The position numbers and the translations under genes are program-made. Below the pieces are notes generated by a model. The model had not been told where the DNA came from. It did no database searches and saw nothing but the letters and a program-made list of their open reading frames with translations. Shown one piece after another: positions 601-19,048 of a stretch of DNA of 64,000 nt. The DNA is from Psychrilyobacter atlanticus DSM 19335 (GTDB taxonomy: Bacteria > Fusobacteriota > Fusobacteriia > Fusobacteriales > Fusobacteriaceae). How positions within the stretch are numbered: position 1 is the stretch's first letter; each line of letters starts with the position of its first letter. Location of the stretch: contig NZ_KE384548.1 of NCBI RefSeq assembly GCF_000426625.1, positions 558,001-622,000 on the forward strand, written 5' to 3'.

Positions 601-657
601 ATCATAACATCCTCTATTTAGGTATTTATCTTAGTAATGGAAAGGAGGCAAAATCAA

Positions 658-978
658 ATGAATAATCCAGATTTTATTAGTTTTCTTTTAATGTTTACAG
701 GAGTTTTATTTCTTTTATCTATATATATTTTTGTAATAAATTTAAAACAAATTGCGGCAAGACGTACAAAAACAACAGATGAATTAATTAAAGAGTGTGA
801 ACTTAAATTAAAGAACTTAAAAAATACAGCTGAAGTTGAAAAAAGTAATGAAGTCATAATAAAATCATTTTCTTTTTTAATCGATCATCCATGCTTTTTA
901 CAAAAACTAAAGGATGGTAAGTATGAAGAAAACTCAAGTTTTAAACAACAAATCATAGAAGTGTTAGAAAAAATGTAG
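658..978 (+). CDS. Small membrane-anchored ICE protein, copy 2
   Basis: 106 residues, exactly the length of the paralogue at 140. I choose the ATG at 658 over the in-frame ATG at 637 because an AGGAGG ribosome-binding site (642-647) sits just upstream of 658 and inside the longer frame. One N-terminal transmembrane helix (residues 6-27) precedes a lysine/glutamate-rich tail almost identical to copy 1. The gene ends 14 bases before the TTG start of the coupling protein and is probably co-transcribed with it. Function unknown. Confidence 0.65.
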   Translation: MNNPDFISFLLMFTGVLFLLSIYIFVINLKQIAARRTKTTDELIKECELKLKNLKNTAEVEKSNEVIIKSFSFLIDHPCFLQKLKDGKYEENSSFKQQIIEVLEKM

Positions 979-992
979 TTGGAGGTAGTGAA

Positions 993-2903
993 TTGGCAAT
1001 AAAAAGAAAAAAATTATCAATAGCTGTTACCTTAATAACTTTTATCTTTGCTTTACAATTTGCAAGCCAAACATATGCTAAGTATACCAATTATCATAGG
1101 AGTTTAAGTAATCCTTTATTAGTTATAAAGTCAACTCCTATCTATCCTTTTTATAGTTTTTTCATATGGGGGATAAAAGGATTCTTTAAAAATACTCCCA
1201 TAGCTTTTGATAAAAGTATGAATTCTATATTTTTATCAGTTTTAGTTGGATTTATTATCCTAATCTTTTTAAATAAGAGTAAAAAACAATTAGACTCACA
1301 CGGTACTGCTAGGTGGGGAACAAAAGAAGATCTAAAAAAAGCTGAGTTATATCCAAATTTTAAAAAGATAAGAAACAGTTTGAAAAAAAGTGGAATGTGG
1401 AAGAGATACAGCAAAGTTCTCCCGAATGAAGAGTTAAAAAGGGATGGAGTAGTTTTAGGGTTAGATGATAAAAAGAATGAGATCTTAGATAGCAGTGTTA
1501 CACATATTACTCTCATGGCTCCTACAAGATCAGGGAAAGGTGTAGGTGTTATTATCCCTACACTTCTAACCTGGAAGCACTCAACTGTGGTAAATGACAT
1601 CAAAGGAGAGAACTTTCAGCTCACTGCTGCATATAGAGAAAAGGTATTAGGTCATAAATGTTTTAAGTTTGATCCAACTAATCCATATGATAGTTGTAGA
1701 TACAATCCTCTAAGAGAAATTAGAAAAGGAACAGTTTATGAATATCAAGACAGTATGGTAATAGCCGAGATAGTTTGTTCAGCAGAAAAAGAAGACCATT
1801 GGACTATATCAGCCAGAAAAATATTTTCAGGAGTATTGATGCACATTCTATATATCGAAGAGGAACCTACAATAGGTAAAGTTCTTAAGTTTCTAACTGA
1901 TCCTTCAAAAAATTTAGAAGAAAAGATGGAGGAGATAATTGAAACAAAACATACAGATGATTCTACACTTTTTGAAAAAATATATAATGATACAACAAAA
2001 GTTAAGATGGAAAACGAAGAGGGTGATATTCAAGAGGTAGCAATGAAACATACTCATCCTAAAGCTTCACGGGAAGCAGGAGATATAATCTCTAAGCCAG
2101 ATAAAGAAAGAGAAAGTATTATGTCTTCTTTAATCTCTATGCTTGGAGTATATGCAGACCCAATAATAGATAAAAACACTTCTTCATCAGATTTTTCAAT
2201 AAAAGATCTAATGAACGATGAAGTTCCTTTAAATCTATATTTAGTAACACCACCAAAGGCTATAAAGATAACAGCACCAGTATTTAGATTAATGATAGCT
2301 CAAATAATAAATGGCCTGACAGATGAAATGGATTTTTCAAGTGGGACGGAGAATAAGGGATTTAAACATAGATTATTGCTGCTGCTAGATGAGTTCCCAG
2401 CTTTAGGAAAGATTCCTATCGTAGAGACTGCATTAGCATATATTGCAGGATATGGAATGAAAGCATTAATCATTACTCAAGATATCAATCAAATCAATAG
2501 GCTATACACAAAGAATAACAGTATTTTATCAAACTGCCATATAAATATGTTTTTTACTCCAAGTAAAGGGGACTATGAGACACCAAAAATAATATCAAAT
2601 GCACTAGGAACTAAAACAATAGAATACCAAACTAAATCTTTTAAAGGAATAAAGTATTTTTCTGATTGGAACCATACAGAACACATTGCATCTAGAAATT
2701 TACTTACTGTAGGAGAAGTCGGGACCTATAGTATGGATAAAAGTTTAATTCTTGTAACAGGAGAACACCCTATTCAAGGAACTAAAGTTAGATATTTTAA
2801 AGATCCTAAGTATTTAAAAAAGATAGATAAGAAAACCTTAAATAAAATAGCTAAGGAAAAAGAAAAAGAGGTAACGGAACAACCAAAAGACATAGAAATT
2901 TAA
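993..2903 (+). CDS. traG: Type IV coupling protein (TraG/VirD4 ATPase)
   Basis: 636 residues, TTG start with GGAGG at 981-985. Hydrophobic N-terminal segments lie at about residues 10-29 and 78-95. The Walker A motif APTRSGKGVG is near residue 175 and the Walker B motif LLLLLDEFPALGK near residue 462; between them is the usual VirD4 all-alpha insertion. The family forms a hexameric inner-membrane motor that brings the relaxase-DNA complex to the type IV secretion channel. Length and motif order match TraG/VirD4. The neighbouring trb genes place it in an IncP/Trb-like conjugation system. Confidence 0.95.
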   Translation: MAIKRKKLSIAVTLITFIFALQFASQTYAKYTNYHRSLSNPLLVIKSTPIYPFYSFFIWGIKGFFKNTPIAFDKSMNSIFLSVLVGFIILIFLNKSKKQLDSHGTARWGTKEDLKKAELYPNFKKIRNSLKKSGMWKRYSKVLPNEELKRDGVVLGLDDKKNEILDSSVTHITLMAPTRSGKGVGVIIPTLLTWKHSTVVNDIKGENFQLTAAYREKVLGHKCFKFDPTNPYDSCRYNPLREIRKGTVYEYQDSMVIAEIVCSAEKEDHWTISARKIFSGVLMHILYIEEEPTIGKVLKFLTDPSKNLEEKMEEIIETKHTDDSTLFEKIYNDTTKVKMENEEGDIQEVAMKHTHPKASREAGDIISKPDKERESIMSSLISMLGVYADPIIDKNTSSSDFSIKDLMNDEVPLNLYLVTPPKAIKITAPVFRLMIAQIINGLTDEMDFSSGTENKGFKHRLLLLLDEFPALGKIPIVETALAYIAGYGMKALIITQDINQINRLYTKNNSILSNCHINMFFTPSKGDYETPKIISNALGTKTIEYQTKSFKGIKYFSDWNHTEHIASRNLLTVGEVGTYSMDKSLILVTGEHPIQGTKVRYFKDPKYLKKIDKKTLNKIAKEKEKEVTEQPKDIEI

Positions 2904-2955: not shown

Positions 2956-3273
2956 ATGAAGGAAACTACTGTGGAAAAACAATTAACTCCCCTAGAAAAA
3001 TTAGAAGTTAAAGAGCAAAAGCTCTTAATTGAGAAAAAGAAAATTATCAGATTAAAAAAAGAAATATTGAAAAAGGAAGAGATTAAGCAAGAAAAGGAAT
3101 TGATAAATTTTGTTAAGAAAACTGACATATTTAAAACATTCTCAAAATCTAAGGAGAATAAAAAGATAATATTTGGAGGTATCCTCTATGCTTTCAATGC
3201 TATTAAAAACAATAATACTTCTGAAATAAATACTTTAAAAAATCTAGTGAATAATCTAGAAAAGAAAAAATAG
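2956..3273 (+). CDS. TraD-like small conjugation accessory protein
   Basis: 105 residues, mostly charged and coiled-coil-forming (residues 10-55), followed by a segment KKIIFGGILYAF near residues 68-79. That segment resembles the conserved RK-hydrophobic-G block of the small TraD family of relaxosome accessory proteins, which sit beside traG in Ti and related plasmids. The match is by eye and weak, but the position next to the coupling protein agrees. It is preceded by the 19-bp palindrome and a GGAGG site and followed by a structured motif. Confidence 0.45.
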   Translation: MKETTVEKQLTPLEKLEVKEQKLLIEKKKIIRLKKEILKKEEIKQEKELINFVKKTDIFKTFSKSKENKKIIFGGILYAFNAIKNNNTSEINTLKNLVNNLEKKK

Positions 3274-3340
3274 GGTATTAGAGTGTTCTTGTAAGAGGTT
3301 ACTCTAATATCCAACCCAACCAAAGGGCGGAAGAATAATT
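3273..3340 (+). ncRNA. Structured RNA motif candidate, copy A
   Basis: A long stem pairs 3276-3284 with 3301-3309, extendable by pairs at 3273-3275/3310-3312. Inside it a GTT/GTT internal loop leads to a 3-bp helix CTT/GAG closed by GTAA (3288-3297). The stem is followed by CCAACCCAACC, a short loop and GGGCGGAAGA, in which CCC can pair with GGG. Copy B at 13373-13440 has the same lengths and the same unpaired sequences, with changed but still pairing stem bases. It lies 30 bases upstream of trbB. I do not recognise it as a known riboswitch or ribozyme. Confidence 0.6.
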
Positions 3341-3369
3341 TGAAATAAGACAGGGTCAAGGAGAGAAAT

Positions 3370-4290
3370 ATGATTAATTTATCACTATTAAAAAGTGCTT
3401 TAGGAGATAAAATTTTAACCTATCTAGATGATAAAGATGTAATAGAAATAATGGTTAATCCAGATAAAAAGCTTTGGATAGATACTCTTTCAAAAGGAAG
3501 GATCTTTACAGGAGAAATAATCCCTTCACAAAATTCAAGAAAGATAATAAATATTGTTTCAACTAATAGTAATGAGGTTATGAATAAGTTTAGCACCATT
3601 ATTAGTGCTGAACTCCCAGGATGTGGGTCTAGATTCCAAGGAATGATTCCACCTTCAGTTATTAATCCAAGTTTTACAATTAGGAAAAAAGCTTCAATGG
3701 TCTTTTCACTAGATAGATATGTAAAAGATAAGATAATGACTCTTGAACAAATGAAAGTAATCCAAAGAGCTATTGAAGAAAGGATGAATATATTAGTTGT
3801 TGGAGGTACTTCTACAGGGAAAACAACACTAACTAATGCAATTATCAATGAGATGAAGAACTATAATAATCGAATTGTAATATTAGAAGATACACAGGAA
3901 CTTCAATGTAATAATGAAGATCATGTATTCATGAGAACTACTCCACATACAAGTATGAGAGATCTACTAAAATCAACTATGAGATTTAGACCAGATAGAA
4001 TAATAGTTGGGGAGGTAAGAGGAGGAGAAGCCCTGGACCTTTTAAAAGCATGGAATTCAGGTCATCCAGGAGGTGTTTCAACTATTCATGCTAATGACAG
4101 TAAATCTGGATTAGATAAGTTGGAACAGTATATTCAGGAGATTTCATCTACCCCTCAACAAAAAATGATTGCTGAAGCTGTTAATTTAATTATAAATATA
4201 AAAAAAGACGGACTTAAACGAAAAATACATGAAATAGTTAAAGTTAAAAAATATGAAAAGAATGAGTATATATTAGAAAAAATAAATTAA
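3370..4290 (+). CDS. trbB: Conjugal transfer ATPase TrbB/VirB11
   Basis: 306 residues. Walker A GGTSTGKTT at about residues 144-152, Asp-box/Walker B region IIVGEVRGGEALDLL near 210-224 and His box GHPGGVSTIHAND near 231-243. These identify a hexameric secretion ATPase of the VirB11/PulE superfamily. The phrase LKAWNSGHPGG is typical of the TrbB branch. It powers pilus assembly and substrate transfer at the inner membrane. It opens the trb block, 14 bases before the trbD-like gene, and its leader carries the structured motif at 3273-3340. Confidence 0.95.
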   Translation: MINLSLLKSALGDKILTYLDDKDVIEIMVNPDKKLWIDTLSKGRIFTGEIIPSQNSRKIINIVSTNSNEVMNKFSTIISAELPGCGSRFQGMIPPSVINPSFTIRKKASMVFSLDRYVKDKIMTLEQMKVIQRAIEERMNILVVGGTSTGKTTLTNAIINEMKNYNNRIVILEDTQELQCNNEDHVFMRTTPHTSMRDLLKSTMRFRPDRIIVGEVRGGEALDLLKAWNSGHPGGVSTIHANDSKSGLDKLEQYIQEISSTPQQKMIAEAVNLIINIKKDGLKRKIHEIVKVKKYEKNEYILEKIN

Positions 4291-4303
4291 GCTGGAGGTT
4301 CAA

Positions 4304-4546
4304 ATGAAAGAATACCAGGTATGTAAAGCGATAACTAAAGAACATACTCTAGCAGGTGGAGATAGAAAATTAGTTATTTTGAATTCAACATTAATAGCTA
4401 TATTTATCTTAGGTTTACAAAACATGATGGTTATACCGGTGTTTCTGGTATTCCATGTTCTAATAATTATTGCTACAAAAAAAGATAGTGATTTTTTTAA
4501 AATTTTTATGAGGTACATAAAAACTAAAAAAATTTATTACCCATAG
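4304..4546 (+). CDS. trbD: TrbD/VirB3-like inner-membrane protein
   Basis: 80 residues with a short N-terminal cytoplasmic segment containing the family pattern KAITKEHTLAGGDRK and two hydrophobic helices at about residues 25-40 and 43-57. VirB3/TrbD proteins associate with the VirB4 ATPase in the type IV secretion inner-membrane complex, and here trbE starts 14 bases downstream. GGAGG at 4293-4297 supports the start. The TrbC pilin gene that separates trbB from trbD in IncP plasmids is absent. Confidence 0.8.
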   Translation: MKEYQVCKAITKEHTLAGGDRKLVILNSTLIAIFILGLQNMMVIPVFLVFHVLIIIATKKDSDFFKIFMRYIKTKKIYYP

Positions 4547-4560
4547 GAGGAATAGAATAA

Positions 4561-7020
4561 ATGATATTTAAAGAATATTCAAATGAAGATAAATTGTTTA
4601 ATTATATCCCTTGGGGATACTTAATAAATTTAGATGTTGAAGAAGATGAGAAAAATAATCAATTAGGTCTTATGCTTAATAAAGATGGGACTTTACAGGT
4701 AACTATTAAATATAGAGGTCAGGACCTAGATTCTAGTCTTGATGATACTGTTGATCTAATATCCTATAAGATAAATGAACTAATGAAAAGGTTAGGGAGT
4801 GAATATAGTTTCTATATAGAAGCTAGAAGAAAGAAAAGTAAGGTATATGAAAGTCATATAGATAAAACCAATAAAATACCACTTTACCTAATGGAATCTA
4901 AAAGAAAAGAGAATTTTGAAAGTGGTAACCACTATGAGAGTGAATACTATTTTACCATTGTATATAGTCCTCCAAAGGATAATTCTCAAAAGATAAGTGA
5001 TCTATATATAACGAAAACTAAGGATGATGTAAAAGAAATTATTGCTAAAAAATATATAGATGATTTTATCTCAAAAATTTCATTTTTCTTTAGTGAATTT
5101 TCTACATATTTTGTTGAAGCTAAACTATTAAATCAGCAGGAATTGCTGACATACTTACATTCAACGATATCTAGACAAGATATAAATATGACAGTTCCAA
5201 CTTTAGAAACACCTATAGATTATTATTTATATGACACTGAATTAATTGGAGGTTTAGAACCTAGATTAAAAGATGAATATCTGAAAGTAATATCTATAAA
5301 TAGTTTCCCAGATACTTCTTATTCTTGTATTTTAGATGCCTTAAACAGGCTACCTATAAACTATAGATGGGTAACCAGGTTTATCCCTATAGAGAAAGAA
5401 GAAGCTCTTAAAACATTGAATTCTCAGTATAAGAAATGGTTTGGAGGAAGAAAATCTTTTTTCCAACTAATACAAGAAACTTTTACCGGGAGGGAAACCG
5501 AACATAACATCAATAGAGATTCATTATCAAAAGCTGAAGAAGTCCAGGAAGAGAAAGAACTTATCCAAGGTGAATATGCATCTTTAGGATACTATACAAA
5601 CGTATTAATCCTTCGAAATAAAGATTTTCAACTCTTAAGAGACAATAGTAATTTAATACAAAAAGTCATAAACAGTATTGGGTTTACGTGCGTAGAAGAA
5701 AGCTTAAATAGTGTTGAAGGGTATTTAGGTAGCTTACCTGGAAACTTCACATATAACGTAAGAAAGCCGCTAATAAATTCTATGTTCTTATCACATCTTT
5801 TACCACTTAGCTGCGTTTGGCAAGGAGAGCAAAGAAATAAACACCTGAAAGATACATCATTAATAGCTACTAGTACTAGTGGATCAACACCTTTTTATCT
5901 TAATTTACATCAGGGGGATGTAGGACACACAATGATTATTGGACCTACAGGAAGTGGTAAATCAGTATTATTAAATGCAATTACTAATAACTGGTTTAAG
6001 TATGAAAAATCAAAGGTATTTACTTTCGATAAGGGAGGCAGCTCTAGAGTATTAACTAAAGCACTAGATGGTATCTTTTATGATTTAGGGCATGAAGAGA
6101 ATATTATCAGCTTTCAACCATTAAAAAATATAGATAAAGATATAGAGTTTTGCCAGGAATGGTTAGAAGACATATTTATCCAGGAGAAAATAGAACTGAT
6201 TCCTGAAAAAAAGGAACATATATATAAAGCATTATTAGATTTAAAAGAAACACCAGTAGAACTAAGAACTATTTCGTCATTTGCAACATACCTTCAAGAT
6301 GAAGAGTTAAGGTTAGCTATAAAGCCTTATACGAATCAGGGAATTATGGGGAAATACTTTGATTCAAATGACGAAAATATAGATCTAAATAATTTTTATA
6401 CAGTATTTGAAATGGAAAAGATCTCAGATAATAAAACTGCCATTACACCCATACTTTCCTACCTTTTTTATAGGTTAGAACAATCTTTAGATGGAAGTCC
6501 TACCCTTATAATTCTTGATGAATGTTGGTTATTCTTTGATAATGAGCAATTTGAACAGAAAATAAGGGAATGGTTAAAAGTTCTTAGAAAGAAAAATGCC
6601 AGTGTTGTATTCGCGACTCAAGAACTATCAGATATTATTAATTCGAATATATCTAATACTATAAAAAATTCATGTAAAACAAAGATTTTACTTCCAGATC
6701 CATTAGCACGACAGAATATAGAATTATATAAAAGCTTTGGTCTTAATGATCAGGAAGTAGAGATACTATCCCAGGCAACTCAGAAAAAAGAATATTATTA
6801 TAAAAGTGAAAAGGGGAATAGGTTGTTTGAATTAGATCTATCACAAATAGAGCTTTCATATCTAGCAACCTCTAGTGAAACTGATAATAAGAAGTATCAA
6901 ACTTTAGAAAATTTAGAGAATAAAAATTTTAATATTGAGTGGCTTATGTATAAAGGTATTGAAAAACCAAATGAAGTAGTTGAGAAAGTAATAAAACGTA
7001 TTTCGGAACTTCCGAAATGA
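4561..7020 (+). CDS. trbE: Conjugal transfer ATPase TrbE/VirB4
   Basis: 819 residues, close to the usual VirB4/TrbE length. The N-terminal CagE/TrbE-type domain is followed by Walker A GPTGSGKSVLLN near residue 461 and Walker B LIILDECWLFFD near residue 650. The early phrase LGLMLNKDGTLQVTIKYRGQDLDS matches the TrbE branch. It is the largest energising ATPase of the mating channel. Its last six codons and stop lie inside the 19-bp palindrome at 7000-7018, so that palindrome must also satisfy the coding frame. Confidence 0.95.
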   Translation: MIFKEYSNEDKLFNYIPWGYLINLDVEEDEKNNQLGLMLNKDGTLQVTIKYRGQDLDSSLDDTVDLISYKINELMKRLGSEYSFYIEARRKKSKVYESHIDKTNKIPLYLMESKRKENFESGNHYESEYYFTIVYSPPKDNSQKISDLYITKTKDDVKEIIAKKYIDDFISKISFFFSEFSTYFVEAKLLNQQELLTYLHSTISRQDINMTVPTLETPIDYYLYDTELIGGLEPRLKDEYLKVISINSFPDTSYSCILDALNRLPINYRWVTRFIPIEKEEALKTLNSQYKKWFGGRKSFFQLIQETFTGRETEHNINRDSLSKAEEVQEEKELIQGEYASLGYYTNVLILRNKDFQLLRDNSNLIQKVINSIGFTCVEESLNSVEGYLGSLPGNFTYNVRKPLINSMFLSHLLPLSCVWQGEQRNKHLKDTSLIATSTSGSTPFYLNLHQGDVGHTMIIGPTGSGKSVLLNAITNNWFKYEKSKVFTFDKGGSSRVLTKALDGIFYDLGHEENIISFQPLKNIDKDIEFCQEWLEDIFIQEKIELIPEKKEHIYKALLDLKETPVELRTISSFATYLQDEELRLAIKPYTNQGIMGKYFDSNDENIDLNNFYTVFEMEKISDNKTAITPILSYLFYRLEQSLDGSPTLIILDECWLFFDNEQFEQKIREWLKVLRKKNASVVFATQELSDIINSNISNTIKNSCKTKILLPDPLARQNIELYKSFGLNDQEVEILSQATQKKEYYYKSEKGNRLFELDLSQIELSYLATSSETDNKKYQTLENLENKNFNIEWLMYKGIEKPNEVVEKVIKRISELPK
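7000..7018. promoter_or_regulatory. 19-bp palindrome, ICE site 2
   Basis: Identical to the palindrome at 2925-2943. It overlaps the last codons of trbE (encoding ISELPK) and is followed four bases later by the GAAGGAGGG ribosome-binding site of trbJ. Exact conservation inside coding sequence argues against chance. Confidence 0.7.
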
Positions 7021-7036
7021 GAAGGAGGGAAAAAGA

Positions 7037-7789
7037 GTGAATAGATTGAAAAATATTTTTCTAATGCTGATTGCTATGAATACAATAACCTTTGCTACTT
7101 TACCAGTTTATGATCCAATGAACTACTTATTGGCTGTAGAACAAAAACTAAATCAAATAAATATGATAGAAAACCAGATAAAAGGCTATCAAAATCAAAT
7201 AAAGAGTTTACAGAATGAAGCTAAACAGCTTGCAACTCTAGACAGAAGCTTAAGTGTGAATAGTTTACAAAGCTTACAACAGTCACTCCATCAAATAATA
7301 CGATTAAACAATTCTACAAAAAGTGTTATTAAGAGATCTGAAGATATGTCTAATAAATTTTTAGATCTATTTCCTCAAAATCCTGATACTTCTATGTCGG
7401 TAAATGATTTAAATAGTAAAAGCAAAGAAGTTGCTGATGAATTAAATAATAGTGTTTATGATGCACTGAATAGTTCTTTAGTAGATCCGGATAAATATAA
7501 TAATGATTATGAAAGGGTTAATGCATTAGTAGAATCTGCTGGTAATTCAGAAGGGAGTTTGCAGGCTCTGCAATCAGCCAATCAAATAGCAGGGTTAAGT
7601 GCAGGTCATTTAATGGAATTAAAGCAGTTACAAGCTCAAGAGATAAAGTTAATAGGAACTATAGAAGCAAGTAAACAAGAAAAAGAAAGAATTCGTAAAG
7701 AAACTGAAGAAAAATTAATGGATGAATATCTAACAAAAGATAGAAAAGAATCAGAAACAGGAAATCTAGAAATAGGAAAATTTAAGTAG
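7037..7789 (+). CDS. trbJ: TrbJ/VirB5-like secreted conjugation protein
   Basis: 250 residues, GTG start with GGAGGG at 7023-7028. Residues 1-21 form a signal peptide (hydrophobic core IFLMLIAMNTITFA) with probable cleavage before TLPVYDP. The mature part is almost entirely coiled coil rich in Q, N and K, including NQINMIENQIKGYQNQIKSL, which is typical of TrbJ/VirB5. These proteins are periplasmic and act at the pilus tip or in exclusion. It lies between trbE and trbL, as expected for a trb cluster lacking trbF-I. Confidence 0.85.
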   Translation: MNRLKNIFLMLIAMNTITFATLPVYDPMNYLLAVEQKLNQINMIENQIKGYQNQIKSLQNEAKQLATLDRSLSVNSLQSLQQSLHQIIRLNNSTKSVIKRSEDMSNKFLDLFPQNPDTSMSVNDLNSKSKEVADELNNSVYDALNSSLVDPDKYNNDYERVNALVESAGNSEGSLQALQSANQIAGLSAGHLMELKQLQAQEIKLIGTIEASKQEKERIRKETEEKLMDEYLTKDRKESETGNLEIGKFK

Positions 7790-7797
7790 GGGGGATT

Positions 7798-8802
7798 ATG
7801 GGAAATTTAACAGAATTAATGAAATTCTTTGAAAAAAAGTTATTAGTTATTCCAGATAATTTACAACCCTATGCATTGGGACTTTTAGCTACATTAGTTA
7901 CGATAGATCTAGGATTATTAGCTTTTCAATTAGGAGAGATAGATGTCATAAAAACATTATGTAAAAAAACTTTTAAATACGGCATGATCACATACTTTAT
8001 AACTGATTATTCTAGTTTAGTAAATGTTCTTATTGATTCATTTATTAAAATAGGAGAGGTTGCTTTAGGTGGGAAAGCAGGTATTGAATTCTTTAGAAGT
8101 CCTTCTAAAATAATTGATATAGGAGTGAATCTAACAGCTGATATATTAAGTAAAGTTAAAGATATGGGAATAACAAATATAGGAGATATAGTAGTTAGTT
8201 ATTTTTATATAGCTATTATTTTAATTATTGTATTTTTTATGGCTCTTTCAATATTCATAGCATGGATGGAGTTTTTTGCAATAGTGGGGATAGGAGTTAT
8301 CTTTTTACCATTTGCAGTGCTGAACAAAACGGCATTTTTAGCAGAAAAGGTTTTTTCTTTAGTTTTGAATTTATCAATAAAGTTAATGGTTTTATCGCTA
8401 ATTTTAAATCTATCAGTTGATTTCTTAACCTCTTTTACTACAAAGGCAGCAATACTGAATGCCCATCAAGATAGTATTTATAAAGTTTCATCTTTAGGAA
8501 CATTGATGTTTTTAATGCTTAAATGTCCTAGTCTTGTTGCTAGTATATTATCTGGCTCTCCTAATCTGAGTGGAAATGATGTTGCTACATTAGGGGGATC
8601 GACAGGAAGGTCAATCATTAATAATACTAGAGGTGGAATACAGAAAGCTGGGAATTTAAAAGAAGGGTTAAAAGGAAATGCATCTTCTAGAACATCCATG
8701 TCTAATTTAGCGGGAAGAGGAGCTAACATTATTGGAAAAGGTGGAATGGGATTAGGAAAAGCAGGTGCTAGTTTAGGTAAGAAGTTTACAGGAAAAAAAT
8801 AA
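7798..8802 (+). CDS. trbL: TrbL/VirB6-like polytopic membrane protein
   Basis: 334 residues with about five to six transmembrane helices between residues 20 and 260, including a long hydrophobic stretch near residues 130-165. The tail from residue 265 is rich in G, S, N and K (GLGKAGASLGKKFTGKK). VirB6/TrbL proteins form part of the inner-membrane channel. The start is 8 bases after the trbJ stop, so translation is probably coupled. A 112-base spacer follows before the next gene, in which I see only a weak imperfect hairpin. Confidence 0.85.
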   Translation: MGNLTELMKFFEKKLLVIPDNLQPYALGLLATLVTIDLGLLAFQLGEIDVIKTLCKKTFKYGMITYFITDYSSLVNVLIDSFIKIGEVALGGKAGIEFFRSPSKIIDIGVNLTADILSKVKDMGITNIGDIVVSYFYIAIILIIVFFMALSIFIAWMEFFAIVGIGVIFLPFAVLNKTAFLAEKVFSLVLNLSIKLMVLSLILNLSVDFLTSFTTKAAILNAHQDSIYKVSSLGTLMFLMLKCPSLVASILSGSPNLSGNDVATLGGSTGRSIINNTRGGIQKAGNLKEGLKGNASSRTSMSNLAGRGANIIGKGGMGLGKAGASLGKKFTGKK

Positions 8803-8914
8803 AAGCTATAGCATAAATCAAAACAAAAATAAAGCATCTTAGTGAAGGCTATATCTATGTTTAATTTAGTAAAATATATAGTTAATAGGAATAAACAATG
8901 AAGGAGGAATACAA

Positions 8915-9331
8915 ATGAAAAAACTATTGTTAGTATTAGGGTTAGTAGGGGTATTAATAGGGTGTGGAATGAAAACATATTCTCCAAACGAAAAGAGAGA
9001 ATTAATTTTAAAAAGTTACTCAGAGGATGAAGCAACAAGAGAAGCAGCAGCAGAGAAGTATTATAAAATACTTAGAGAATTGTCTCGATTATATGACAAA
9101 GGTAATGAAGATGCTTATGCTGAGTACAGAGAATGGGAATCAACACTCGAAGAAGTATCTAAAGAAGTTAGAATAAAAAGAAGAGCAATTTCAAGGGTGA
9201 ATTTTAGGAGAAAATATAATGATATCAATGAAGAAGAATATAAAAAAGAATTAATAGAAGCAACAAAGGATCCGGGAGCTTATTTAGAGAGAATAGACAG
9301 AGAAAAACCAGCTTTCCCACATTTTAAATAG
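8915..9331 (+). CDS. ICE lipoprotein of unknown role
   Basis: 138 residues. A lipoprotein signal peptide ends in the lipobox LIGC (Cys at about residue 17). The mature part is charged, helical and without hydrophobic segments. GAAGGAGG at 8900-8907 supports the start. In other conjugation systems a small lipoprotein here may act in entry exclusion (TrbK) or core assembly (TrbH/VirB7), but I see no specific motif for either. Confidence 0.7.
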   Translation: MKKLLLVLGLVGVLIGCGMKTYSPNEKRELILKSYSEDEATREAAAEKYYKILRELSRLYDKGNEDAYAEYREWESTLEEVSKEVRIKRRAISRVNFRRKYNDINEEEYKKELIEATKDPGAYLERIDREKPAFPHFK

Positions 9332-9343
9332 GAGGGGGTTAAA

Positions 9344-9865
9344 ATTAAGAAGAAGTTTATTATTATATTCATCTTAGGAGTGATTTTGTTATCTAGATTT
9401 TTTACATATAATATTAGTGATTCTATCCCAAAAGGTTTTTATTTTCTTTCACCAAAGGCTCAAAATATAGAAAAAGAAGATATTGTAGTTATACCTATTG
9501 ATAGGTTAGATAAAGAGATACAAAATATAATATTTGAGAGAGGTTATTTACCTAGATTTACAAAATATCTTATTAAAGAGGTTAAAGGAACATATAATGA
9601 CGATGTTTACCTAAAAGCAGATGAACTTCATATATCAGGGGAACAATTTAAAGTACAAACATACGACACATTAAAAAGACCTCTTCCGGTATTAAACAAT
9701 GATGATTTTACTCTAAAAGAAGATGAATTCCTAACTTTAGGAGTCAAAGAAAACTCTTTTGATTCTAGATATTTTGGGAAAATTAAAAAGGATCAAATTA
9801 AATATATGGCTAAAAAAGTAAATAACAAATATTTTAAAATTAAGACTAATAAAGATAGTCGTTGA
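9344..9865 (+). CDS. traF: TraF-type S26 peptidase (pilin maturation), ATT start
   Basis: 173 residues if translation starts at the ATT at 9344. A strong GGAGGGGG site (9331-9338) lies five bases before that codon, and the extra 12 residues (KKKFIIIFILG) complete a proper membrane anchor; the GTG at 9380 has no ribosome-binding site and would cut the anchor. Catalytic Ser is in SDSIPKG (about residue 27) and the Lys in KYLIKEVKG (about 75). The late block FDSRYFGKIKKDQI is the conserved S26 box. TraF processes and cyclises the TrbC pilin. The peptidase assignment is firm; the ATT start is inference. Confidence 0.85.
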   Translation: MKKKFIIIFILGVILLSRFFTYNISDSIPKGFYFLSPKAQNIEKEDIVVIPIDRLDKEIQNIIFERGYLPRFTKYLIKEVKGTYNDDVYLKADELHISGEQFKVQTYDTLKRPLPVLNNDDFTLKEDEFLTLGVKENSFDSRYFGKIKKDQIKYMAKKVNNKYFKIKTNKDSR

Positions 9866-9926
9866 TTAGGGTATCACTCTAAAATGAATTTTAAAATTAT
9901 ATTAGGTTAGTGAGCAAGAGCTCAAG

Positions 9927-9978
9927 GTCTGTTAGAAAAAGTAATCTTTGATTATTTTCTTTAACAGGCCTTTTATTT
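9927..9978 (+). terminator. Rho-independent terminator after traF
   Basis: AGGTCTGTTA pairs with TAACAGGCCT (9964-9973) across an AT-rich loop and is followed by a short T-run. It separates the trb/traF block from the autotransporter gene. Confidence 0.6.
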
Positions 9979-10002
9979 TATCAATAATTTAAGGGAGGTA
10001 AT

Positions 10003-13000
10003 ATGAAAAAAAAGATAGCAATTATAGCACTAATAGCTATATCAAACTTAGCTAATGCACAATTAAATGAAAATCAAAATGAATTCATTAAAGTAAATAA
10101 AAACAACTTATTAAATGATGAGAAAAGATTTCAAGAAAATAAGATATTAGTATTTGGAAATTTCAATTACTACAATAAGAATAGTAGACATTCTAAGAGT
10201 TATAAAAAGAAAGGAACTGTAAACCCACCATTAAGGCCAATAGGTGAATACAAGCCGTTAACCCCAGAAGTAGATCCATTAAGGCCAATAGGCGAGTATA
10301 AACCATTAACTCCAGAAGTAGATCCATTAAGACCAATAGATAAATATGAACCTATAACACCAACAGTTCCTCCAATATATAAACCAGAGATAATAATTTG
10401 GGAAGATGGAAAAGATATTACAGGAACTTCATATACACTAACGCATGATGTTACAACTAATACGAATGATGGTTTGAAAACAATAGGCGGTGAAATTATA
10501 AACGAAGCAACTATAACAGTTGCAGGAGAGTGGAAATATGGAATGAAGGTAGAAAATGGAGGGAATGGAATAAATAACGGGATTATTAATGCTTCTAAAG
10601 GTGTAAGAGCTATAGATGGTGGGAAAATAATTAATAACGGATTAATCTCTTTAACAGAACCTAATATTTCTAAAGTAGGTATGCAAGCTGATACTTCTGG
10701 AGTAGTTGTAAATGAAGAAACAGGAGTTATAGAAATAGAGAGTAACGGCGGAATTTGGGATTCTGGGATGAAAACAGTGGATGGTATAGCGAAAAACAAA
10801 GGGGAAATAATTTTAAGTGGCGGCGGCAGTATAAAAGATGGAATGTTTGCAATAGGTAACGGAACGATAATCAATGAAGAAACAGGAATAATAGAAATAA
10901 ATAGTGATGATGGTGATAGTTATGGGATGAATGCAGATGACGATAGTACAGCAGTAAATGAAGGGAAAATAACTTTAAATGGTCATGGGATAGGAATGAC
11001 TGCAGGCGATAGAGGAGTAGTAACAAATAAGGGAAGAATAATTTTAAATGGTGATGGAAATACAACATTTGGAATGTATGCAACTGGTAATGGAACAATA
11101 ATTAATGAAGAGAAAGGGATAATAGAAGTGTTAAATAGTGGTGATGATGGAAGTTACGGATTGATTGCCCATGACGATAGTACAGCTATAAATAAAGGAA
11201 CAATTAATATAAATAGTAAAAATGGAATTTATGATTCTGGAATGTATGTAGACGGTACAGGAATAGCAACGAATGAAGGAACAATTAATATGAATGGTGG
11301 AAGCTATGGAATGAATGCGAAAGATAGTGGAACGATAATCAATGAAGAAAAAGGAATAATAGAAATAAAAGATGGAATTTGGACCTATGGAATGAGTGTA
11401 GAAAATGGAATAGCAATAAATAAAGGGAAAATAGTTTTCAATGATGGTTATACAGGAAAAGTAGGAATGATTGCAATAGATAGTGGAACGGTAACTAATG
11501 AAAATATCATAGAGATTAATGCTATGAATGGTGTAGGAATGAGAGCAAATAATACATCAACAGCAATAAATAAAGGAACTATTAATATAAATGGTGATAA
11601 TGGTATCGGTATTGAAATTAATAGTGGAGCAACAGGAATAAATGATGACCTTGGAGTAATTAATCTTAATGCTAATGATGGGATAGGGATTAAAGTAGAT
11701 GGAGTAGGTAGTTCATATGTTAATAATGGTGATATAAATATTGCTTCTGGAACTACAGGAAATCAAAAGATTGTTTTATCTGGTGGTGCTACTTTTTCAA
11801 ACTCAGGATCTATAGTTACGGAAGGAGAATTTAATACAGATAAAATGGGAAATGGTCAGTTCATTATGTCTGATGGAGGGAGCCTGGAAGCAGAAACAAT
11901 AAAAGGTGATATCTATGCTAGTGGAGCTTTAGCAATGGGCGGATATGATGATATTTATAGTACATATAAGATGTTGAAGACAACAAACTTAGAAGGAGAG
12001 ATAATCTCTAATTCAGCGATGTTTAATGCTGATTTTACGGAAAATGCAGATGAAAATGGGTTTTATGATGTTGTCTTAGATAGGAAAGATTTTAATGCCA
12101 TTGTTAGCAATGAAGAGTTAGGAAAAATATTAGAAGATAACTATGAAGAAAATGGAGATAAATTCAAAGAGAACTACTATGATGCCCTAAAACTAGTGAC
12201 AACAGAAAAAGGCTTGAATAAAGCTGCTGAAGATAGTTATGGAATGTCTTACTATCCAACATTAGCTAAGCAGACTTTCGAAATAATAAACGATAGTAAT
12301 CAAGTAATAGTTAATAATGTTATAGATAACGTGAAGTATAGAGAAGTAGATGAAACTATAGCAATAGCAGGGGTTAATGTAACAAGATTAGAAAATGATT
12401 CATATAATGATATCTCAGGATATGATACTGATTTATACAGTGTTTATTTAGGAGCAGAAAAACAATTGAGTAAAAATACTCGTATTGGTGGAATTATTAC
12501 TATTGGAAAAAGTGATACAGAATCTAAAGAGAACGAGGGTGGGCCTAGAGAAGATTATTATTATCAAGGGAATTTATACCTTACATATGAAAATGATGAA
12601 AGGTTAAAGTTTACATCCATGGTTTTTGGAGGAATTACAGATACGGCATTAGAGAGAACTTTGGCATTTGGGAGCTTAAATGAAACTATGACAGATGATA
12701 TTAATAACTATTATTTAGGAATAAACAATGAAGTAAGTAAAAAATATTATTTTAACGGGAACTATATAAAGCCTAAATTTGAGATTAATTTTACATATAT
12801 GATGCAAGATGATATTTCAGAATCAGGAGATCAAGGTTTAGAAATTGATGGTGTAAATTCCATATCTCTAGAAACAGGGATAGGTTTAGCACTAGGAAGA
12901 GATTTCTATTTAGAAAACAGAAGTAAAATCAATCTTGAGGGAAGTGTAACAGGATATGCAGAGTTAGGAGACCCATATAAAGATTTAGATTCAACATTTA

Positions 13001-13185
13001 ATACTTTAAGCACAGATAAAGTTAAGATAGATGGATATAACAATGATGATTTTTATGGGGAGATCTTAATGGGAGGAAGCTACGAAACAGAAGACTTATT
13101 AACTATATATACAAAAGTAGGATATAGGATAGGGAATGACTTTGAAGGTTTTGTAGGAAATATTGGATTAAATTACTTGTTTTAA
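10003..13185 (+). CDS. Autotransporter (type V secreted surface protein)
   Basis: 1060 residues. A signal peptide (MKKKIAIIALIAISNLANA) is followed by a proline-rich stalk with three 16-residue repeats (residues 76-123). A passenger of degenerate N/G/I-rich repeats (about 150-640), full of patterns such as GTIINEEKGIIEI, suggests a right-handed beta-helix. The last 280 or so residues form an autotransporter beta-barrel ending in GNIGLNYLF with terminal Phe. Such proteins are adhesins or other surface factors in Fusobacteriota. It lies between traF and the ICE accessory genes, flanked by terminators, so it is probably cargo or a mating-contact adhesin. The target is unknown. Confidence 0.9.
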   Translation: MKKKIAIIALIAISNLANAQLNENQNEFIKVNKNNLLNDEKRFQENKILVFGNFNYYNKNSRHSKSYKKKGTVNPPLRPIGEYKPLTPEVDPLRPIGEYKPLTPEVDPLRPIDKYEPITPTVPPIYKPEIIIWEDGKDITGTSYTLTHDVTTNTNDGLKTIGGEIINEATITVAGEWKYGMKVENGGNGINNGIINASKGVRAIDGGKIINNGLISLTEPNISKVGMQADTSGVVVNEETGVIEIESNGGIWDSGMKTVDGIAKNKGEIILSGGGSIKDGMFAIGNGTIINEETGIIEINSDDGDSYGMNADDDSTAVNEGKITLNGHGIGMTAGDRGVVTNKGRIILNGDGNTTFGMYATGNGTIINEEKGIIEVLNSGDDGSYGLIAHDDSTAINKGTININSKNGIYDSGMYVDGTGIATNEGTINMNGGSYGMNAKDSGTIINEEKGIIEIKDGIWTYGMSVENGIAINKGKIVFNDGYTGKVGMIAIDSGTVTNENIIEINAMNGVGMRANNTSTAINKGTININGDNGIGIEINSGATGINDDLGVINLNANDGIGIKVDGVGSSYVNNGDINIASGTTGNQKIVLSGGATFSNSGSIVTEGEFNTDKMGNGQFIMSDGGSLEAETIKGDIYASGALAMGGYDDIYSTYKMLKTTNLEGEIISNSAMFNADFTENADENGFYDVVLDRKDFNAIVSNEELGKILEDNYEENGDKFKENYYDALKLVTTEKGLNKAAEDSYGMSYYPTLAKQTFEIINDSNQVIVNNVIDNVKYREVDETIAIAGVNVTRLENDSYNDISGYDTDLYSVYLGAEKQLSKNTRIGGIITIGKSDTESKENEGGPREDYYYQGNLYLTYENDERLKFTSMVFGGITDTALERTLAFGSLNETMTDDINNYYLGINNEVSKKYYFNGNYIKPKFEINFTYMMQDDISESGDQGLEIDGVNSISLETGIGLALGRDFYLENRSKINLEGSVTGYAELGDPYKDLDSTFNTLSTDKVKIDGYNNDDFYGEILMGGSYETEDLLTIYTKVGYRIGNDFEGFVGNIGLNYLF
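10228..10371 (+). repeat. Three 48-bp tandem repeats in the autotransporter stalk
   Basis: In-frame units at 10228-10275, 10276-10323 and 10324-10371 each encode 16 residues of the type PLRPIGEYKPLTPEVD. Units 1 and 2 encode identical peptides with synonymous differences; unit 3 is divergent. Being multiples of three, they can expand or contract without breaking the frame and would change stalk length. Confidence 0.85.
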
Positions 13186-13190
13186 TTAAA

Positions 13191-13215
13191 AACCCCACTT
13201 CTAGGAGAAGCGGGG
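13191..13215. terminator. GC-rich hairpin after the autotransporter
   Basis: CCCCACTTCT pairs with AGAAGCGGGG around a short loop, just after the autotransporter stop. There is no T-run on the plus strand; on the minus strand the hairpin is followed by TTTTTAATT. It is probably the 3' end of the autotransporter mRNA, but termination strength is uncertain. Confidence 0.5.
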
Positions 13216-13372
13216 GACAGATAAAAAACAGAGTGACAAAACTCTTTATCTAGGTTCCTAAAAATATTTACTTTAGGAATAAATGAAAGAGAAGGAACCT
13301 AAGTTAATCTTATATCAAATTTCAGCCATAGTCAAAAAATTTATAAGGATGAACTATCTATTTTAAATTTAG

Positions 13373-13440
13373 GGGATATAAGTGTTCGCGTATGTGGTTA
13401 CTTAGATCACCAACCCAACCGATAGGGCGGAAGATAAAGG
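13373..13440 (+). ncRNA. Structured RNA motif candidate, copy B
   Basis: Same architecture as copy A at 3273-3340. Stem 13375-13383 pairs with 13400-13408 with one mismatch. GTT/GTT internal-loop bases flank a 3-bp helix CGC/GTG closed by GTAT, followed by CCAACCCAACC and GGGCGGAAGA. Relative to copy A, outer-stem pairs change A-T to T-A and G-C to A-T, and inner-helix pairs change T-A to G-T and T-G to C-G, while the loops stay constant. Confidence 0.6.
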
Positions 13441-13566
13441 CTTAAAAAAATGGGGATTATATTCTTAATGTATATAAAATTCTATGGAATTTTAAGATGA
13501 ATGAAAGAATAAAAATTGCTAAATTTATTATACGAGAGAATGGAAGTTGATCGAAGAGGTGAAGGA

Positions 13567-17971: not shown

Positions 17972-19048
17972 ATGAGTGTATATAAAGATAAGATAAGGAA
18001 TAGCTGGTATGTAGAAATAAGGTATAAAACCTATAATAATGAACATAAAAAAAAGAAAAAAAGAGGCTTTAAAACAAAAAAGGAAGCCAAGGAGTGGGAA
18101 ATTAAATTTATTTCTCAAGAAAAAGAGACAAGCTCAATGTTAGGTTTTAAACAATTAGCAGAAATTTATTTAGAAGATATAGAGGTAAGGGTAAAAGCTA
18201 GTACATTTGCAAGAAAAAAAAGAGTATTTAACGGGAAGCTTATACCGTATTTCAAAGATAAATTAATCCAGGATATAACACCTGCAGCTATAAAAAAATG
18301 GCAAAACCACGAATTAAAAAATGAATATACAAAAAGTTATTTTAAAACCTTACAAAAAGAATTGAGTGCAATATTTAATTATGCGGTTAAATTTTATGGA
18401 GTCAAAGAAAATCCTGTTAGAGTAACCGGAGGAGTCCAGGAGTCACCTTTATTAAAAGATAAAAAAGCAACCAATATAATAACTCCTGAAATATACAAAA
18501 GGTTTATAAGGGAGATTAAAACATTTGATAATAGTGAAATTTCACTTATATTTTCTCTACTGTATTACACTGGTTGTCGGATAGGTGAAGTATTGGCTCT
18601 AAATAGAAAAGATATAAATTTTAATGATGGAAGTATAAAGATAAATAAGACATATTCAAAAATTGATAAAAAAGGGTATATTACAAAACCAAAAACTAAA
18701 TCATCAGTTAGAGTTATAAAAGTTCCAGATTTTTTGATGGATGATTTAAAGGTATATATAGATACTCTGTATGACAAGGAAATAAAAAGAATTTTTCAAG
18801 TTAGTAGAACCAATTTACATAGACGTAAAAATTTGACAATAAAAAAATTGAAACTAAAACAATTCAGCCTACATGATTTTAGGCATAGCCACGCTTCAAT
18901 ACTTTTTCAAAGCGGAGTAAACATTGTTAAAATTTCAAAAAGATTAGGTCATGAAAGTATAAAGATGACCTTAGATACATATTCACATTTAGTAGATACT
19001 GATGAAGATAAGGTGTTAGAAGTTTTAAATAAATTAAACAATATTTAA
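17972..19048 (+). CDS. int: Tyrosine recombinase (ICE integrase)
   Basis: 358 residues. An N-terminal arm-binding domain (SVYKDKIRNSWYVEIRYKTY, residues 2-50) precedes a SAM-like core-binding domain (about 55-150) and a catalytic domain. Catalytic residues visible are Arg in TGCRIGEVLAL (near 200), His-x-x-Arg in HDFRHSHAS (near 300), His in RLGHESIKMT and the nucleophile Tyr in LDTYSHL (near 336). This Tn916/phage-like integrase would recombine at the adjacent tRNA-Arg 3' end, 67 bases beyond its stop. Confidence 0.95.
   Translation: MSVYKDKIRNSWYVEIRYKTYNNEHKKKKKRGFKTKKEAKEWEIKFISQEKETSSMLGFKQLAEIYLEDIEVRVKASTFARKKRVFNGKLIPYFKDKLIQDITPAAIKKWQNHELKNEYTKSYFKTLQKELSAIFNYAVKFYGVKENPVRVTGGVQESPLLKDKKATNIITPEIYKRFIREIKTFDNSEISLIFSLLYYTGCRIGEVLALNRKDINFNDGSIKINKTYSKIDKKGYITKPKTKSSVRVIKVPDFLMDDLKVYIDTLYDKEIKRIFQVSRTNLHRRKNLTIKKLKLKQFSLHDFRHSHASILFQSGVNIVKISKRLGHESIKMTLDTYSHLVDTDEDKVLEVLNKLNNI

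Follow-up and report, generated by a model that had tools for sequence, protein, structure and literature searches.

Among the described systems that come closest to the element reported here are the REP hairpins, which bear a tetranucleotide at their 5' foot and, in E. coli, a required irregularity in the stem, and of which only one strand is recognised, in its folded single-stranded form (PMC8266576). Miniature elements derived from the IS200/IS605 family have a hairpin near one end, fold in a strand-specific manner and carry no terminal inverted repeats. On conjugative plasmids, single-strand initiation (ssi) sites and single-stranded DNA promoters are further examples of folded, strand-specific sites (PMC11541004; PMC5714925). 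Integron attC sites are also folded single-strand sites, which serve in recombination and are associated with small genes, toxin-antitoxin pairs among them.

The window analysed here is a stretch of 64,000 nt from Psychrilyobacter atlanticus DSM 19335, part of a 1.15-Mb contig in a 3.54-Mb genome. It includes the right end of an ICE, where a tyrosine integrase gene (17972-19048) adjoins a tRNA-Arg gene. The original prediction, made from the letters of the window, described two copies of a structured motif with a common architecture inside this ICE, and both were found where it had placed them, on the + strand of the same element (copies A and B, Table 1). Their common tail, CCAACCCAACC-N3/4-GGGCGGAAGA, is found nowhere else in the 3.54-Mb genome, and the form with a 4-nt spacer has an expectation of zero in shuffled windows. 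On the 5' side of copy A is an open reading frame of 105 aa (2956-3273) that stops with TAG at 3271-3273, and on its 3' side come the ribosome-binding site of trbB and trbB itself (3370), whereas the gene that precedes copy B encodes an autotransporter of 1060 aa.

Table 1. Coordinates of the hairpin copies and of other features of the elements that carry them (positions without a prefix are those of the window).
Feature	Position	Strand	Evidence or remark
Copy A, core (TAGG + hairpin + CAACCCAACC + GGGCGGAAGA)	3271..3334	+	covariance model, 91 bits
Copy A, hairpin stem-loop	3273..3312	+	pairing alignment, folding energy
Copy A, 80-bp unit, absent from congener G001	3272..3351	+	AGGGT at 3272-3276 and 3352-3356
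Copy B, core, 3' of autotransporter gene (10003-13185)	13370..13434	+	covariance model, 93 bits
Copy B, hairpin stem-loop	13372..13411	+	pairing alignment, folding energy
Copy B, putative 80-bp unit	13372..13451	+	GGGGAT direct repeat at 13372-13377 and 13452-13457; no empty site seen
Copy D	CP102408.1:60037-60108		
Second repeated leader	9910-9985; L181:14330-14420; L233:11255-11375	+; +; -	
ICE relaxase gene, MobA/MobL type	G000:C3:458.7-461.2 kb		about 100 kb left of copy A
Nested inverted repeat upstream of relaxase gene	L233:11480-11620; L235:6600-6750	-; +	nearly invariant between G000 (genome of the window) and G001
Tandem duplication	117-558 and 635-1075		89% identical
Defence-like cargo	L182:13202-19496; L181:566-1366		
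Kinase similar to PD-T4-6	L181:7914-9395		

Other features of the ICE deserve a brief record. A second repeated leader, TTAGTGAGCAAGAGCTCAAAGTCTGTTAGAAAAAGCAAT...ATTGCTTTCTTTAACAGGCTTTTTTT with an intrinsic terminator, stands upstream of the autotransporter, trbC and relaxase genes, and it looks like a shared attenuation or antitermination control. The tandem duplication affects a small gene upstream of the coupling-protein gene. To the left of the transfer genes lies a defence-like cargo with several Thoeris-like TIR (ThsB) and SLOG/STALD proteins, and there is also a kinase resembling PD-T4-6.

Two further copies, C and D, extend the family. The first came from a comparison of the window's ICE with that of its closest relative, the congeneric genome G001, whose TrbB is 97% identical; it lies near the integrase, just 3' of the same autotransporter gene. 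The second was recovered in genome G005 with a covariance model built from A, B and C, and is found with the same sequence and position on plasmid pZRK30-3 of the cold-seep isolate Fusobacteria bacterium ZRK30. There it is flanked by a hypothetical gene on one side and by yefM/yoeB on the other, runs antisense to both, and lies just past the -35 of what looks like a yefM promoter. On the plasmid it also lies about 1.6 kb from the maximum of the cumulative GC skew, nearly opposite the rep gene; a terminus-like position was considered as an explanation for D and set aside, as A and B do not fit such a position.

The conserved sequence of the family spans about 65 nt and forms a hairpin on one strand. 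An invariant TAGG marks the 5' foot in 4/4 copies, with its GG paired within the stem, and is followed by a 13-bp outer stem, an invariant G.T/T.T/T.G irregularity, a 4-bp inner stem and a small loop; 3' of the hairpin come an unpaired CAACCCAA and a CGGAAG tail. The irregularity is located where the original prediction had drawn a symmetric GTT/GTT internal loop, although, read as RNA (G.U, U.U, U.G), it amounts to a single U.U mismatch flanked on either side by an invariant wobble pair. The base changes that the prediction listed for the stem are real, and B has two imperfect stem positions.

In the four-copy alignment, standard pairs are formed by 94% of the cells in the 17 pairs, and both sides change in 6/17 pairs. 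When the partner is slid by one to three columns, pairing drops to 39-44% and double-sided changes to 0-1 pairs, and between 0 and 14 of 500 shuffles reach the observed values. The six covarying pairs across the four copies thus support the view that the hairpin has been kept by selection, as had been proposed from two copies, and the additional homologues with covariation that this proposal called for are provided by C and D. Covariation over four sequences gives good support to the main hairpin and is of little help in judging whether the tail forms a three-pair mini-hairpin (CCG/CGG).

Folded as RNA, the + strand of A reaches -24.3 kcal/mol (z -4.7 against shuffles) and that of B a weaker -18.2 kcal/mol (z -1.3), while C and D have z values of -3.0 and -1.75. 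This strand folds clearly better than its complement in A, B and C, and only slightly better in D; when D is folded as DNA, the complement is the better strand. RNA energies are set apart from those of shuffles more than DNA energies are. Pair usage also suggests that the + strand is the one that folds: two positions have invariant G.U pairs, and the variable cells, read on this strand, contain four G.U and a single C.A.

All four copies reside on mobile DNA, either ICE or plasmid, of a single marine Fusobacteriota genus among the genomes searched. Of the eight congeneric genomes, that of the window has two copies and G001 and G005 have one each, with no convincing copy in the other five or elsewhere in the eight. 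When the four-copy model was run on 98 Fusobacteriota genomes, on about 290 from other families and on another class comprising 63, no additional convincing copy was returned; these large searches used stricter filters, and the genomes of the genus were rerun with laxer ones. Weak matches in other genomes (14-26 bits) were chance-like by eye where shown. Two model searches in the classes around genomes that share the type of T4SS, which hold few genomes, gave nothing. Motif searches of viral contigs, phages and plasmids yielded no further convincing copy, and neither four stricter viral scans nor the phage collection gave any match. Over genome and viral contigs, the loose pattern CCAACCCAACC-N2,7-GGGCGG gave only chance matches, mostly in GC-rich coding DNA; for the broad scan of genome contigs this pattern was too loose, and copies beyond the sampled genomes may have been missed. 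In Rfam, no family matches the motif at the gathering score and a permissive search gave chance-level matches only, so that the claim of no known riboswitch or ribozyme family holds for that database.

Evidence on how the element may have arrived comes from the sister ICE. At the site of copy A, next to the 97% identical TrbB, G001 reads ...AAACTAGGGTCGAGGAGAGAAATATG and the element is absent; the window has AGGGT at both 3272 and 3352 where G001 has a single AGGGT, so that the two ICEs differ here by exactly 80 bp. The other trb operons examined in Fusobacteriaceae leave no gap at this point, trbB directly following or overlapping the gene before it. This makes an insertion in the lineage of the window the simpler reading, and copy A is best read, on this comparison, as an 80-bp insertion. 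A deletion in G001 is also possible, since G001 is shorter than the window's genome at two other intergenic sites. Copy B shows GGGGAT at 13372 and 13452, the same 80-bp spacing as the repeat of A; short direct repeats somewhere in wide windows around B are common, and the chance of a run that long at that one register is about 1%, as estimated from base composition. No flanking direct repeat was found around C or D. An empty site and a direct repeat go together in A, B has the repeat at the 80-bp spacing, and C and D have none; we infer that B, C and D are mobile too.

Our best explanation, a tentative one that draws on analogy with REP or IS200/IS605-derived elements, is that the motif is a low-copy, non-autonomous hairpin carried by mobile DNA. 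The conserved sequence would sit inside an insertion unit of about 80 bp that has spread at very low copy number on ICE and plasmid, and the hairpin would offer a folded single-strand substrate to a strand-specific DNA-processing enzyme acting in trans, the fold being kept on one strand independently of the neighbouring genes. Both the action at the level of single-stranded DNA and the processing enzyme are things we infer. In favour of such a mobile hairpin are the four copies with six covarying pairs, all on mobile DNA and indifferent to the genes beside them. The likeness to REP and IS200/IS605 elements lies in insertion as a unit, the absence of a promoter of its own, of terminal inverted repeats and of a gene, the one-strand hairpin, and the invariant foot and stem irregularity.

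The comparison can be drawn more closely. Like the elements of the REP/TnpA-REP (RAYT) system, the motif is a short intergenic hairpin with an invariant 5'-foot tetranucleotide, a stem irregularity and a favoured strand, and like them (PMC8266576) it would be a non-autonomous mobile unit. However, its foot is TAGG and not the GTAG of REP, its GG is paired in the stem, it has a conserved unpaired 3' tail, and it occurs at no more than two copies per genome, far below the high copy number of REP families, which also counts against the mobile hairpin itself. The Y1 transposase (PF01797) was found in none of the carrier genomes (G000, G001 and G005), while control genomes gave matches, and G003 has one copy with stops. 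Copy number and lack of transposase therefore exclude the motif from REP proper. With IS200/IS605-derived miniature elements it has in common the hairpin near one end, the lack of terminal inverted repeats and the strand-specific fold, but neither a transposase nor a parent element was found for it. The IS200/IS605 family is not known to make a flanking direct repeat, whereas A and B have a possible one. A DDE-type miniature element was discarded, as inspection of A and B revealed no terminal inverted repeats; C and D are each enclosed by outer inverted repeats (TTTAATTC/GAATTAAA and TTTAGGC/GCCTAAA, respectively), which A and B lack and which are probably due to chance. An attC site was discarded as well, with no RYYYAAC...GTTRRRY pair at the motif ends and no cassette array seen by inspection.

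Besides copy number, the mobile hairpin has against it that neither a Y1 transposase in the three carrier genomes nor a parent element was found, that C and D lack the direct repeat, and that RNA energies fit better than DNA energies. The foremost alternative is a structured RNA, either part of the ICE transcripts or a small RNA, in which the hairpin together with CAACCCAA/CGGAAG would bind a protein or another RNA and so affect processing, stability or translation. We regard this as possible, if somewhat unlikely. The + strand RNA fold beats the complement in A, B and C (slightly in D) and most shuffles, G.U is used on that strand by invariant and variable pairs, and A, B and C run in the same sense as the ICE genes. 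Yet D runs opposite to its two neighbours, lies immediately outside the yefM promoter and has no promoter-like site near it on its own strand; within the 80-bp unit there is neither a terminator nor, 5' of the hairpin, a promoter; G001 does without copy A; and no downstream gene is common to the copies.

A single-strand initiation site of the ssi, sso or primosome-assembly type, which would start complementary-strand synthesis on the single-stranded ICE or plasmid, is a less probable reading by analogy. It would account for a fold on one strand regardless of gene direction and for the restriction of the copies, among the genomes searched, to a conjugative element and a plasmid; provided that the relaxase gene is the last to enter, A, B and C would also be on the strand presumed to be transferred. 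Like ssi, sso and Frpo sites, the motif is folded on one strand, sits on transferable DNA and may recur within an element. It is, however, shorter than Frpo, shows no recognisable sequence relation to these sites, lacks promoter-like elements in its core (by inspection of A and B, the -35/-10 layout of the Frpo promoter is absent) and, in A and B, lies far from the presumed leading region. Besides, the insertion of A as an 80-bp unit would be left unexplained.

B and C occupy comparable places in two ICEs, beside a gene that is about 85% identical, and have kept their pairing through compensatory changes. If the two are orthologous, this suggests a local function and a fold still in use, not a dead insertion; an RNA or single-strand initiation function is a possible explanation too. 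Going beyond known families, the motif might represent a new class of hairpin without promoter or transposase that spreads between conjugative elements and plasmids, is moved by the relaxase or another single-strand enzyme of the ICE, and is kept because the hairpin serves the element when single-stranded. We give this idea little weight.

The notion of an origin of transfer, copied within the ICE and mimicked on the plasmid, had also been raised by the original prediction and now appears very unlikely. The usual oriT layout is indeed a hairpin followed by a conserved unpaired region, and C and B, near the right end of the ICE, would be brought towards the relaxase end if the ICE, whose left end was not located, were circular. 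Nevertheless, the relaxase gene, which is followed by TraD-like and ArdC-like genes, is distant from the motif and has directly upstream, in both ICEs, a nested inverted repeat of its own (GCACG-catac-GCATAAC-TAAA-GTTATGC-CGTGC). The alignment around this block is 86% identical between G000 and G001 and the block itself is nearly invariant, which makes it the probable oriT candidate. Moreover, for a relaxase of the MobA/MobL type, what we take to be the MOBQ nick sequence is not conserved in C or D, and a conjugative element has no need of two oriTs. Finally, a cis-regulatory leader of trbB, which the place of copy A, after one stop codon and ahead of the ribosome-binding site of trbB, might suggest, is highly improbable, and a tie to conjugation genes is not supported, because the element is absent upstream of the 97% identical G001 trbB, as of the other trbB genes examined, because B has its repeat at the 80-bp spacing, and because the other copies precede unrelated genes or none (C following the autotransporter gene, D antisense to both neighbours beside yefM/yoeB).

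A covarying structure beside a conjugation gene need not, then, regulate that gene, and here a mobile hairpin and a riboswitch-like leader are told apart by the empty site of a sister element. Should enzymes of the ICE or plasmid move the hairpin by acting on single-stranded DNA, it would stand as the fusobacterial equivalent of the REP or IS200/IS605 hairpins without a resident transposase, and would provide a handle on the enzyme.
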